From an uncultured Prochlorococcus sp. (GTDB lineage: Bacteria > Cyanobacteriota > Cyanobacteriia > PCC-6307 > Cyanobiaceae): a stretch of 45,780 bases of DNA. Below, in pieces: positions 37,740 to 41,897 of the stretch (positions are counted from its first letter, which is position 1; every line of letters begins with the position of its first letter). The notes beneath the pieces are model-generated. The model was not told where the DNA came from and did no database searches. It saw only the letters and a list, made by a program, of their open reading frames with translations. The position numbers and the translations under genes are program-made. Location of the stretch: the NCBI GenBank assembly GCA_902591865.1, contig CACJCK010000009.1:1-45780 (forward strand), written 5' to 3'.

Positions 37740-38137
37740 AAAATAAAAAAATATTTTTTATAAGTCTTATTCTAATCCAACATTGAAAATATTTAGGAAA
37801 TCTCAGAATATAAAAATTATTTCATTGAGAATTTCTTATCATAATATGGGCTAGACATCCACCAAAGTTATTTAAAGCTATAGAAATCCTCGCCCATTCC
37901 TTTAACGCAAAATTTTAAGAATAGTCAGCAGTCAATCTCTGCGAAAGGATTCCAACCTGCGAGCTAGTGCTCCCAAAACAATGCACATCATACTAGCATC
38001 ACCAGGTTTCTGCGCTATGACTATTTTTTTGCTTACTTCTGCGAAGTTTGTCATGACAAATTAAGCAATATTTTTCCGCAATTTGTCCGCAATTCTTTCT
38101 TTATTTAAATTCTTAGAAATAAATAGATTTAAAATTA
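37740..38137. other. Gap holding a tRNA-Pro relic and integrase-side repeats
   Basis: No protein gene. The middle carries a decayed tRNA-Pro sequence (37941-38020, own entry). Next to it come TTTGTC-type repeats: the 14-bp palindrome TTTGTCATGACAAA at 38047-38060, then TTCCGCAA and GTCCGCAA repeated 11 bp apart (38074-38092). These match in order and kind the region before the integrase gene at 40650, so it looks like the end of an older copy of the same element. Confidence 0.65.
37941..38020 (-). pseudogene. Decayed tRNA-Pro (TGG) copy
   Basis: On the minus strand, 37941-37978 matches the tRNA-Pro 3' half at 40483-40520 with about four differences in 38 bases, including the anticodon loop TTTTGGGA and the T-arm (CGCAGGTT.GAATCCT). 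A D-arm-like TAGCGCAGAAACCTGG is also recognisable at 38002-38017. The acceptor stem and CCA are lost and there are insertions near the anticodon stem, so it cannot be a working tRNA. Confidence 0.65.
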
Positions 38138-39280
38138 TTAAATATCAAATTGCTTTATTTTATTTTCAGAAATTTCTTCAGATAATGAAAGACTTGTTTT
38201 TTTAGCAGTCAATTCTGCAAATTGCTCTCCTTTTTTAATAGTCGTTTTCAATTTATTATGAGCTTCATTATAAATCGAGGCTGTTTGTTTTATTTTTAAA
38301 CCAATATCATTAAATCTCTTTAAAAAAGCTTCTAAAGCATTATTTAATTCTCCTGCTTTGTTTGATGCTTCTTGAATACCCCTTGTTAAATTTGCTTGTT
38401 CAATATTCATAGAAAGATTTTGTAAAATGGCAAGGAAACTTGTTGGGAAAGTGAGAATTATTTTTTTTTCAAAAGCATATTCTAATAATTTTTCATCATG
38501 AGCTAATGCCATTGCCAATGCACCTTCAATTGGAATGAACATAATTACACCATCTAATACGACTCCTTTATTAGTCTTATTATTTGAATATTTCTTTTTA
38601 GAAAGCTCATTAATATGTCCTTGAACTTTTTTAACATGATTATCTAAAGCCAATTTATAAGTCCGTTCATCCCTCGCTTTTAAAGCATCCTGATAACTAT
38701 CGAGAGGAGCTTTGGAATCAATAATAAATAATCTTTCACCAGGAATTGTTATTACACAATCGGGCCTATAAGTCCCATCATTTGTTTTTAATGTTACCTG
38801 CTCATCAAAATCACAATACCTATTAAGACCTACATATTCCATAGTTCTTTTAAGTGTCACCTCCCCCCACTTTCCTTTTATGTTTGGATTGCGTAAAGCA
38901 TTCGCTAATTCTTTAGCGGCACTTTCAACATCCTCATTCTTTGTCTTCAAATCTTTAGTAGTGGTAGACAAGACCGATAATTTTTCTCTCGATTCATCGT
39001 TAAGAGTTTTTACTTGTTTGGCTAACTTATCTACTTGTTGGTTGAAAGGTTCAGAAACATTTGCTTTTGTTGCTTTTATTAATTCCTCCCTTGATTCTTT
39101 AAGCATTCTTGAACTTAAGATTTCAAATTGTGTTTTCAAATCATTTTCAAGTTTTTCTTGAGATTTTAACTTGATATTCAATTCGGTTTCTCTATTTGTT
39201 TTCCAGAAAGATTTAGTCAAAAAGAAACCAGCAAATATTCCCGAAAATACCCCAGTTAAAAAAAGTAAAAAACTATTCAT
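38138..39280 (-). CDS. rmuC: DNA recombination protein RmuC
   Basis: A 380-residue RmuC-family protein. An N-terminal membrane anchor (FLLFLTGVFSGIFAGFF) precedes a coiled coil (about 30-130). The conserved nuclease-like core is NPNIKGKWGEVTLKRTMEYVGL, YRPDCVITIPGERLFIIDSKAPLDSYQDAL and GVIMFIPIEGALAMAL. A second coiled coil ends the protein. RmuC limits inversions at short inverted repeats; biochemistry is limited. It lies between two tRNA-Pro relics, downstream of two dead genes on the same strand, and is itself intact. Confidence 0.92.
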   Translation of the reverse strand: MNSFLLFLTGVFSGIFAGFFLTKSFWKTNRETELNIKLKSQEKLENDLKTQFEILSSRMLKESREELIKATKANVSEPFNQQVDKLAKQVKTLNDESREKLSVLSTTTKDLKTKNEDVESAAKELANALRNPNIKGKWGEVTLKRTMEYVGLNRYCDFDEQVTLKTNDGTYRPDCVITIPGERLFIIDSKAPLDSYQDALKARDERTYKLALDNHVKKVQGHINELSKKKYSNNKTNKGVVLDGVIMFIPIEGALAMALAHDEKLLEYAFEKKIILTFPTSFLAILQNLSMNIEQANLTRGIQEASNKAGELNNALEAFLKRFNDIGLKIKQTASIYNEAHNKLKTTIKKGEQFAELTAKKTSLSLSEEISENKIKQFDI

Positions 39281-39373: not shown

Positions 39374-39784
39374 CTAATTATCAGAATTAGATAATTTATT
39401 AAAGACTTTTTGTTGTAAATTTAAATCTTCAAGGAATGTTGTTATTAACTGAGACAGTTTTTTATTATTACAGTTACGAAGTTCCTTACTTCATTAGATC
39501 CAATAATAGGATTAATATTTTTTTTGGAAATACTTAACATTTGTTTTGCATTTTTTTTTTGGACAAGATAGCTTTGCTTTTTTAAGTTAAGGTTTCAATA
39601 GTTCTGATATTTTCTTTAGTGATGATGCTTCATCTAGTCTTTTTTTGTGAAAAGACTTTGTCTATCTAGAATCATAGTTCCATTTTGAAATTTCTTTTAG
39701 ATTCTGGATATTCAAATATTGCACTTCACAGAAAAATAAAAGAGATTGAGTGCATTTTTTCTCACCTTCCGAAACCACCCTCAT
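39374..39784 (-). pseudogene. Broken gene B (soluble protein)
   Basis: From ATG 39784 the minus strand reads MRVVSEGEKKCTQSLLFFCE, then a coherent 40-residue start until TAG at 39662-39664. The same frame continues (TKSFHKKRLDEASSLKKISELLKP) to a TAA at 39587-39589. Two frame changes later it ends with SQLITTFLEDLNLQQKVFNKLSNSDN and a stop at 39374-39376. Reconstructed length is about 130 residues. Family unknown. It begins 23 bp after pseudogene A ends, so the two once formed an operon upstream of rmuC. Confidence 0.7.
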
Positions 39785-39807
39785 TTTGTCGTTTATTTAT
39801 AGTTGCT

Positions 39808-40334
39808 CTATAACTCGTTGAAATAGATTTTTTTTCTCCTTTTAATTATTGGATATTTACCTCTTAAATAGTTATTTAGTATCTTCCATTCGATATCTTT
39901 CTTTTCTGCAGTATGTAAGTACATTGGTAGTCTTAAGAATTTATCTATGCCATAATCGATTTCACTATATTTCATTTTTTCGTAGGCTTAGTGCAGAGCT
40001 TTAAAAGCCATTTCCCAATTTTCATTTTTTTTATGTTCTACAGCCTCGGTTAAATTTTTTGTGGGTCTTTACCTTTGTTATTACTTTCAAGAAAAGACTT
40101 AAATAATATTTCTAAATTCGTTCTGATAGGTATCCGTTATTTTTGGGATTAATTGTTTTATTAATAGTTTTTGTTTAAAGATCTTTATCTCAAGTCTTTA
40201 ATTTTCCTTTATAAGAACTATTTTGGACTTCAGATATTTGCGAATTTTTAGGTGAAGAGTCTCTACTGATTTGCTTATACCTCAGATTTAAAAAAATAAA
40301 GATAACTATAACTACGAAAAAATACGGGTTTCAA
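39808..40334 (-). pseudogene. Broken gene A (membrane-anchored protein)
   Basis: A probable TTG start at 40334 leads to a membrane helix (FFVVIVIFIFLNL), after a one-base slip in a run of six A on the plus strand (40317-40322). A polar linker follows (RYKQISRDSSPKNSQISEVQ), then two in-frame stops including TGA at 40190-40192. After two further frame changes (one in the T run 40055-40060) comes a helical domain: NLTEAVEHKKNENWEMAFKA, then TAA at 39988-39990, and AYEKMKYSEIDYGIDKFLRL to a final stop at 39808. About 175 residues if repaired. Family unknown. Confidence 0.72.
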
Positions 40335-40473
40335 TGATATTTCAGTGAAATTAAGCTAGCTAATTAAAAACTCATAATACGAGTTTGTCAGCAATTAGTC
40401 CGCGGTTGCTGAGGAAAGATTTTCTAACAAAAAAGCGAGTCTGGGTAACTCGCTGGTATGAATTGGTTTTAAA

Positions 40474-40527
40474 TGGTCGGGGGCGATAGGATTCGAACCT
40501 GCGACCTAGTGCTCCCAAAGCACTTAA
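40474..40527 (-). pseudogene. tRNA-Pro (TGG) 3' half, probable attachment site
   Basis: On the minus strand the sequence carries an intact anticodon arm (AGTGC-TTTGGGA-GCACT), the T-arm (GCAGG-TTCGAAT-CCTAT), the 3' acceptor strand GCCCCCG, discriminator A and encoded CCA. The matching 5' acceptor strand CGGGGGC and normal D-arm are missing: beyond the anticodon stem the sequence diverges. It is therefore a truncated tRNA-Pro, the usual footprint of tRNA-directed integration. The integrase starts 123 bp away. Confidence 0.75.
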
Positions 40528-40611: not shown

Positions 40612-40632
40612 ATTTGTCGGCGATTTGTCGGC
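40612..40632 (+). repeat. Two direct repeats ATTTGTCGGC, 11 bp apart
   Basis: ATTTGTCGGC occurs at 40612-40621 and 40623-40632, just before the integrase start. Related pairs occur at 38074-38092 and 40384-40403 (TTGTCAGCAATTAGTCCGC). The regular helical-turn spacing suits protein binding, for example integrase arm-type sites or an autoregulatory operator. Confidence 0.6.
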
Positions 40633-40649
40633 TAATTGAAATATTTGTT

Positions 40650-41897
40650 ATGGGAAAATCATTTTTTACAGCCAACTGGGAAACAGAATTTAAAGAAGAT
40701 GTCAGGCACATTCAAAAAGGTTCTGGACTAACTGTTAGTAGTAATAGGCAAGGGAATATAGAAGTTAAATACCGCAAGAATGGTACTAGCCAGACAACAA
40801 CTATTCCTTTTAGTTGGTCAAAAGAAACTAAGGGAGATGCTTATACAAGAATTAGAAATATTTATAAATTTATTGCTGAAGGGCATAGTCTTAAAGCTGC
40901 TGCTGATTTAGCTCAAGGCAAAGCACCAAAGAAGGGAAAAGATTGGGCATATATATTGAAAAACTTTAAATATCAAAAATTGAATTTTGGTAAGGCAACA
41001 ACAGAAGCCACCTTCAATAAGCAATACAAACCAGCTTGTGAAATGGCTGTTGAATTAATGGGTAGTAAAACTCCACCTATGAACCCTGCTGATCTAATTG
41101 ATATGTGTGTAAAAGATTGGACTGCTGGTAGTAGAACCAGGCAAATGAGAGCTAGAGCAATAAAACAATTCCTTACCCATGCAGTTACTAGAGAAGGTAT
41201 TGCAGATATATGGAATCCACCAACCGACTTAAAGCCACATATTGGAGAAGCTAAACCACAAGAGAAAATCAATAGAGAAGGAGATCATTTTGAAGATGAC
41301 CAACAAATTATAAATTTCTTAGAAACTTTGCCAATTAATAGTTCTTTCCAGAGAGATGCCGAAGCTGCTGAAAAATGGTTAAACGCATTTAGATTAATGG
41401 CTGAACTAGGTTTAAGACCTATTGAAGTTGGTTATTTAAAAGTAAAGAAAGACCCAGTAACTAAGGATTTTTATTGGTGGTGTGAATACAGGAAAAAGAG
41501 TGGCGGTGGTATTACTGAACCTAGAAGAGTTGAACCATTACCACTAATAGATGATGAAGGAAAAGAACAAGAATGGAATTTAATTAATAGGTTCAAAACC
41601 AATACTTTACCTTTACCAGATCGAGTAGATGGAGAAGCCTGTAATACATATCTTCAGAGAAAAGAAAGTTGGAAAAGCCTTAAAAAGATGATGAAAGAAA
41701 CTCAGGGAATGAATATTGTTGCTTACAGTTTTAGACACTCTTATTCATTAAGAGCCCATGTTTTAGGGATTGATTCTGGTTCTGTTTCTATGAGCATGGG
41801 GCATACTCTGGAAGCTCATCACAGGGCTTATCCTTATGCTTCAAAAGCAAGTACTACTAACGCATTTAAAAGAGCTAGAGAAAGAGCCACGGCTTAA
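40650..41897 (+). CDS. Tyrosine recombinase (integrase)
   Basis: 415 residues from ATG 40650; a TTG at 40614 would add 12 residues that lie in the repeat region. The catalytic domain shows box I Arg256 in LGLRPIEVGYL, box II Arg362 in YSFRHSYSLR, Gly-His 384-385 and the nucleophile Tyr394 in HHRAYPY at the standard nine-residue distance from that His. The usual first His of HxxR is Tyr here (YSFR). An N-terminal SAM-like core-binding domain (about 110-210) and a basic start precede it. It lies beside a truncated tRNA-Pro and resembles integrases of tRNA-associated elements of Prochlorococcus (tycheposons). No inactivating change is seen. Confidence 0.9.
   Translation: MGKSFFTANWETEFKEDVRHIQKGSGLTVSSNRQGNIEVKYRKNGTSQTTTIPFSWSKETKGDAYTRIRNIYKFIAEGHSLKAAADLAQGKAPKKGKDWAYILKNFKYQKLNFGKATTEATFNKQYKPACEMAVELMGSKTPPMNPADLIDMCVKDWTAGSRTRQMRARAIKQFLTHAVTREGIADIWNPPTDLKPHIGEAKPQEKINREGDHFEDDQQIINFLETLPINSSFQRDAEAAEKWLNAFRLMAELGLRPIEVGYLKVKKDPVTKDFYWWCEYRKKSGGGITEPRRVEPLPLIDDEGKEQEWNLINRFKTNTLPLPDRVDGEACNTYLQRKESWKSLKKMMKETQGMNIVAYSFRHSYSLRAHVLGIDSGSVSMSMGHTLEAHHRAYPYASKASTTNAFKRARERATA

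Follow-up and report, generated by a model that had tools for sequence, protein, structure and literature searches.

The stretch between positions 39374 and 40334 of the window is a pseudogene of one gene, here called orf298, and not of two. The window is the whole of contig G000:C9 (45780 bases), which belongs to a draft genome of 57 contigs that is 72% complete. Very probably, orf298 is the decayed first gene of a two-gene orf298–rmuC cassette that was formerly mobile between tRNA-Pro(UGG) 3'-end sites in Prochlorococcus islands. The data show a single-gene origin, a neutral-looking decay, a constrained rmuC, boundaries at tRNA copies and, in two other genomes, an orf298 that is damaged or lost. 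The features of the window that bear on this explanation are the following.

37941–37980, minus strand: right end core, degenerate tRNA-Pro 3' part (nucleotides 30–69 of the tRNA query; 90% identity)
38069–38090, minus strand: right inner repeat, a GCGGACAAAT-type unit with its second copy damaged by one change (from the alignment)
38138–39280, minus strand: rmuC, intact, 380 aa, RmuC-family nuclease-like, with a hydrophobic N-terminus by eye (ORF and PF02646)
39445–40338, minus strand: orf298 pseudogene, with a hydrophobic N-terminal helix, a linker and a TPR-like helical domain (intact ORF in a relative and DNA alignment)
40382–40403, minus strand: left inner repeat, degenerate; its counterpart in G108 and G157 is the paired GCGGACAAAT-type repeat (from the alignment)
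40480–40523, minus strand: left end core, a tRNA-Pro(UGG) 3' part (nucleotides 29–72 of the tRNA query; 98% identical to the intact tRNA-Pro in L029)
40613–40632, plus strand: paired repeat TTTGTCGGC, directly before the integrase start and different from the cassette variant
40650–41897, plus strand: tyrosine-recombinase-like integrase (ORF, Pfam and PHROG)

One broken gene and its protein family

An earlier note on this DNA had described positions 39374–40334 as a decayed two-gene operon with two consecutive minus-strand readings, A and B. Its description of a decayed coding sequence stands: no ORF of at least 80 aa was found in the interval, the broken minus-strand frames run on into each other as protein-like readings, and tblastn with the intact relative scored 159 bits on the real stretch, 25.8 bits being the highest score among 500 dinucleotide-shuffled versions, a coherence beyond chance. 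The number of genes has to be revised. A query read by hand from the broken frames detected an intact relative in G108 (Prochlorococcus scB243_495K23), in which a single intact ORF of 298 aa (L016:667–1563) immediately precedes rmuC. The blastn alignment of the window with G108 is in one piece (2590 columns, 93%) and runs from a tRNA fragment through the broken orf298 and rmuC to a second tRNA fragment; because it is collinear with the single ORF of G108, A and B both belong to one gene. The hydrophobic N-terminal stretch, the linker and the helical part that had been assigned to A are all present. With an intact counterpart of 298 codons, the pseudogene spans 39445–40338 on the minus strand (coordinates counted by hand from the sequence and the alignment), so that the proposed limits are slightly shifted, and its intact partner rmuC lies outside them. 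Over orf298 the window and G108 are 90.3% identical at the DNA level, and the start codon is lost in the window (ATG to ATC). That two genes of one operon have both decayed here is very improbable: the frame does shift in the middle of the stretch and the halves do look separate in the broken sequence, but the relative has one frame across the whole stretch and the distant homologues are single proteins too.

The orf298 product comprises a hydrophobic N-terminal helix, a linker and a helical domain. Structure prediction without homologues gave a mean pLDDT of 42.6 and was confident for about the first 20 residues only, which form a helix. Of the order's 399 genomes, 10, from 6 of 44 genera, match a three-sequence profile of the protein, the genome of the window being counted. 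The N-termini that precede the helical part vary, judged by eye: a hydrophobic helix in G108 and G355, a longer soluble part in G143, G175 and G300, and a zinc-ribbon-like N-terminus, below the Pfam cut-off, in G385, G390 and G396. Matches to Pfam TPR families were sub-threshold and occurred in homologues, and the best match of an eight-sequence family profile was the designed consensus TPR 7obi (E 2.4e-4). We infer a TPR-like scaffold from these matches; the make-up of the intact product suggests, as a guess, that it was probably a membrane-anchored helical-repeat scaffold.

The earlier note had proposed looking for full-length homologues next to integrases, and such neighbours were found. 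The G157 (AG-449-J16) copy, full-length with one stop, has an integrase across the tRNA-Pro copy, and a distant homologue in G300 adjoins an integrase between two tRNA-Thr(GGT) genes (L066:4356–7795), in a compact element at another tRNA. The homologue in G143 begins 176 bases past an intact tRNA-Pro(UGG) gene, and the ends of this interval match. In G355 (L068:4576–9107) the homologue adjoins a 1157-aa RNase_H_2 + AAA helicase gene, to which a gene in the G108 island (L016:10274–11998) is 60% identical.

Decay of orf298 beside rmuC

Between the window and G108, orf298 differs by 86 substitutions at 888 sites, distributed 27/30/29 over the three codon positions. The stops and frame changes noted earlier are borne out as seven in-frame stops and six indel runs relative to the intact copy (two of the runs are adjacent and alignment-dependent), some of them in A runs as had also been remarked, whereas their division between two genes is not. 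Over the 1140 sites of rmuC there are 31 substitutions, distributed 5/5/21, and no indels. The values of dS are similar (0.128 for orf298 and 0.107 for rmuC), and dN/dS is 0.74 for orf298 versus 0.08 for rmuC. Restricting the comparison to differences of the window from a state shared by G108 and G157 gives a pN/pS of 0.78 for orf298 (bootstrap 0.51–1.31) and 0.08 for rmuC (0.03–0.18); since these changes are unpolarised, an outgroup being absent, some may fall on the G108/G157 branch. An intact homologue together with several inactivating lesions, and a loss of constraint relative to a similarly diverged neighbour, are both marks of a pseudogene, and orf298 carries both. Its changes look like the outcome of long, nearly neutral decay next to a kept rmuC. 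A pseudogene as such is ordinary here; island cargo genes decay.

It is extremely unlikely that an amplification or assembly error made an intact gene look broken. The draft state of the genome and the position of some breaks in A runs would fit such an error, but the seven substitution stops and six indel runs in about 890 bases face none in the 1140 bases of rmuC (Fisher p ~2e-5, per codon, for the contrast in lesions), and errors would not be expected to produce 86 changes spread so evenly. Hardly more credible is a present role of the stretch as a non-coding RNA or as a regulatory region for rmuC. About 900 bases are still retained before rmuC in the window, as such a role would lead one to expect, but Rfam gave no match within the stretch at E 1, the divergence resembles that of synonymous sites, and G284 lacks most of the stretch and has an rmuC that is open up to its last codons. 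The earlier note had held that conservation as a non-coding RNA would count against a decayed gene; no sign of it was seen at this Rfam threshold, and the changes are neutral-like.

Among the 266 genus genomes searched, the intact orf298 protein has matches in seven (E 1e-4), two of which, G143 and G175, are distant, and a fully intact close copy occurs in G108 only. What is taken as the intact state therefore rests on this one copy, a caveat on the cassette explanation. The G157 copy is 97% identical to that of G108, yet it carries damage of its own: codon 37 is a stop, and 1 base has been inserted. G284 has only the tail of orf298 (29 matched codons with one stop), and G210 has 77 codons, running to the contig end. 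A DNA search with the stretch against 60 genomes, its own included, returned besides itself only matches of 28–36 bases (best E 1.9e-4), which were taken as chance. The hand-read query had no matches in phage and plasmid records, and IMG/VR contained no relatives detectable with the intact orf298 protein or with the three-sequence profile A1.

Relatives of rmuC were found in 16 of the 266 genomes. Close ones (96–98% identity, or the window itself) are present in five, namely G000, G108, G157, G284 and G210, and all five of these cassette-type copies are stop-free. The rmuC of G284 is open and differs in its last codons; type IV pilin-like genes, recognized by eye, lie beside the site that is missing most of orf298 (L031:10039–12389). 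In G210 a piece similar to integrase N-termini stands in place of the first 21 residues of rmuC, which continues in frame behind it (L028:1390–2784); the piece is 70% identical over 105 residues to that of G180. The fusion is either an amplification chimera or a real recombination. The window copy matches PF02646 over 288 residues (E 4.7e-76, 256.1 bits against a cut-off of 26), and thus belongs to the RmuC family, from which it is set apart by its place inside a tRNA-bounded cassette. There was no sequence match to it in the PDB at E 0.01.

A different history can be imagined, in which orf298 and rmuC made up a two-part, Shield-like defence system and one part was lost. RmuC domains serve defence in Shield as described in PMC10270631, the PADLOC model RTasRmuC matches the window rmuC (E 5.9e-46), and both proteins start with a hydrophobic helix (by eye, and for orf298 also in the model). 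We regard this history as unlikely nonetheless. In tblastn searches at E 1e-3, no orf298 was found near 11 other rmuC loci (2.2–4.1 kb each) and no rmuC in the 6.5–20 kb surrounding seven distant orf298 homologues; rmuC persists without an intact orf298; and PADLOC gave no hit for orf298 at E 0.1. On this distribution, orf298 and rmuC do not appear to be a stable pair.

The tRNA-Pro-bounded cassette and its end repeats

The unit made up of orf298 and rmuC is 2.5 kb long and has a copy of the tRNA-Pro(UGG) 3' end on either side. It lies next to the integrase gene; of the earlier suggestion that the decayed sequence had been cargo or neighbours of the element, this supports cargo. The left core is a partial tRNA match in Rfam, under the gathering score, and the right core has two mismatches in the 28-base core. 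On the left, homology to G108 begins inside the tRNA copy for the window and G157; for G210 the start lies about 17 bases ahead of the core. On the right, the homology of the window, G210 and G284 stops at the core or immediately past it, and that of G157 extends about 140 bases beyond the core, a point against the cassette explanation. The genes outside the unit differ among genomes (by eye, from ORF lists). Since its homology is bounded by the tRNA copies and its outside neighbours differ, the unit behaves as a single movable piece. Between the two ends there is no integrase, another point against the cassette explanation. Both attachment ends are kept, in degenerate form in the window, with only orf298 and rmuC between them, which is the arrangement of a CIME as defined in PMC5704250.

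At the left inner repeat no tandem pair was detected in the window, while pairs were detected in G108 and G157; at the right inner repeat a shortened tandem pair was detected. Because the two inner repeats are altered, as is the right core, the window copy can be read as a fossil cassette, with a decayed passenger in orf298 and a kept one in rmuC. A search of the window's genome, which is incomplete, gave no match to a complete tRNA-Pro(UGG); on its contig 24, a 42-base tRNA-Pro 5' part runs into unrelated sequence (L062:1501–1542). In G108 a 113-aa protein before the cassette (L016:134–475) matches phrog_34910, of unknown function (E 3.2e-7).

The integrase beyond the left core likely starts at the ATG at 40650, the ORF list giving a TTG at 40614. 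Its match to Phage_integrase (E 2.8e-5, 24.4 bits) is below the Pfam cut-off of 27.1; it also matches the phrog_216 integrase (E 1.3e-4) and has relatives in 70 of 265 genus genomes. The GCGGACAAAT variant borne by the orf298–rmuC cassette is found before the integrase of G185, which is 61% identical to that of the window. The window integrase has its own, different repeat variant, a point against the explanation proposed here.

According to that explanation, a tyrosine integrase of another element would have cut and joined at the tRNA core, with the paired inner repeats serving as its arm sites, and the cassette would therefore have needed no integrase of its own. With both of its ends mutated, the window cassette is probably now fixed; orf298 would have been dispensable and decayed, and rmuC would have been kept. 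Movement of the cassette is what the arrangement of the sequences suggests; none was observed.

In tRNA-Pro islands, where repeat pairs were detected at both ends of a cassette, they mostly match. A 38-base tRNA-Pro end (at most three mismatches) is present in 104 of 121 genus genomes and in all 41 of the more complete ones, and the reversed control pattern did not appear among the matches listed. In 21 stretches (from the window, L016, L027–L032 and L081–L100, a non-random set chosen for tRNA-Pro copies or orf298), 136 copies of the 28-base core with at most six mismatches delimit 112 intervals, with a median of 1.9 kb and a longest of 16.4 kb. An integrase of the kind searched lies in nine of the 112, always on the opposite strand and with its frame beginning 102–155 bases from the right core. 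A tandem pair with a spacing of ~11 bp was detected at both ends of 61 intervals, not all of them independent, and the two ends share a 7-mer in 51 of these; shuffled pairing of the ends gave a mean of 5.4–5.6 and at most 13. When duplicates were dropped, 50 of 59 matched (shuffled mean 5.6, maximum 15). The same-fragment control gave 4/60 and the neighbour control 10/96. Some results speak against the repeats being labels: the ends did not match in 10 of the 61 intervals, in the other 51 of the 112 at least one end is without a detected repeat, and among integrase-bearing intervals with repeats at both ends a match was seen in only one of four.

Repeat pairs were also found near integrase starts, in 26 of 31 cases, whereas gene-internal windows had one in 42 of 620 cases; these integrases are a non-random set (ten loci returned by the relative search, 20 picked by hand from its list and that of G157). 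The frequency with which integrases share a repeat is 12/17 at an identity of at least 80%, 4/31 at 60–80%, 12/57 at 40–60% and 4/301 below 40%, a trend that is not smooth. Five integrase labels were looked up: three flank one or more integrase-less intervals on both sides, a fourth does so only for an interval that itself contains such an integrase, and the fifth flanks no interval on both sides. The paired repeats may be integrase arm sites that label cassettes. We consider it reasonably probable that tRNA-Pro islands consist mostly of small integrase-less cassettes with a shared core, in which the type of the paired end repeat acts as the label and integrases choose cassettes by their own type before the start codon. 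Perhaps the integrases also control themselves through the label. No account of the paired end repeats was found in the literature searched, which is no proof of absence.

The orf298 pseudogene is of use in that it would mark a fossil cassette, reveals the kept passenger rmuC and led to the cassette ends, the match between which is the part that deserves a second look. If the labels were address tags for integrases, sequence would predict which integrase mobilizes which cassette. Cargo flow would then be predictable in a very abundant ocean phototroph, and the movement of one- and two-gene cargo units in streamlined genomes would become directly testable.

Comparison with known systems

Integron gene cassettes, too, are small, stand in arrays and have a site in common. 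The cassettes described here share a tRNA copy as their site, and their inner repeats vary between cassettes.

Shield, as described in PMC10270631, consists of the RmuC-domain protein ShdA with a partner set, ShdB–ShdE, and is reported there only in Pseudomonas. An RmuC-domain protein with a partner gene is common to Shield and the present unit. Compared by description only, the orf298 family resembles TPR proteins whereas ShdB is metallopeptidase-like; moreover, orf298 is unpaired with other rmuC genes and is not matched by PADLOC, the models of which may not include Shield.

Tycheposons, for which a second-hand account (PMC10872708) quotes a size of 4–200 kb, are alike in their Prochlorococcus host, tRNA borders, tyrosine recombinase and cargo. 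At 2.5 kb and without an integrase, the orf298–rmuC unit is under the quoted range; it is perhaps a part or relic of a tycheposon-type island, the limits of which were not found in this contig. A tRNA border and a tyrosine recombinase are both present in the window, with the integrase below the Pfam cut-off, and tRNA-Pro may not be among the seven tRNAs named for tycheposons.

A Prochlorococcus island with pseudo-tRNA copies has been published for tRNA-Met (PMC2784084), and arrays of integrase-less elements at RNA-gene 3' ends are already known. The ssrA islands of Dehalococcoides are described as arrays of elements at the 3' end of an RNA gene that include integrase-less units (PMC3146451). 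From the descriptions of such arrays and of CIMEs (PMC3146451 and PMC5704250), the likeness to the tRNA-Pro islands lies in tandem units that are bounded by copies of an RNA-gene 3' end, some without integration genes. The Prochlorococcus intervals differ from the arrays so described in being small (the median given above), in having integrases of the tyrosine type and in carrying repeat pairs that match at both ends of a unit.
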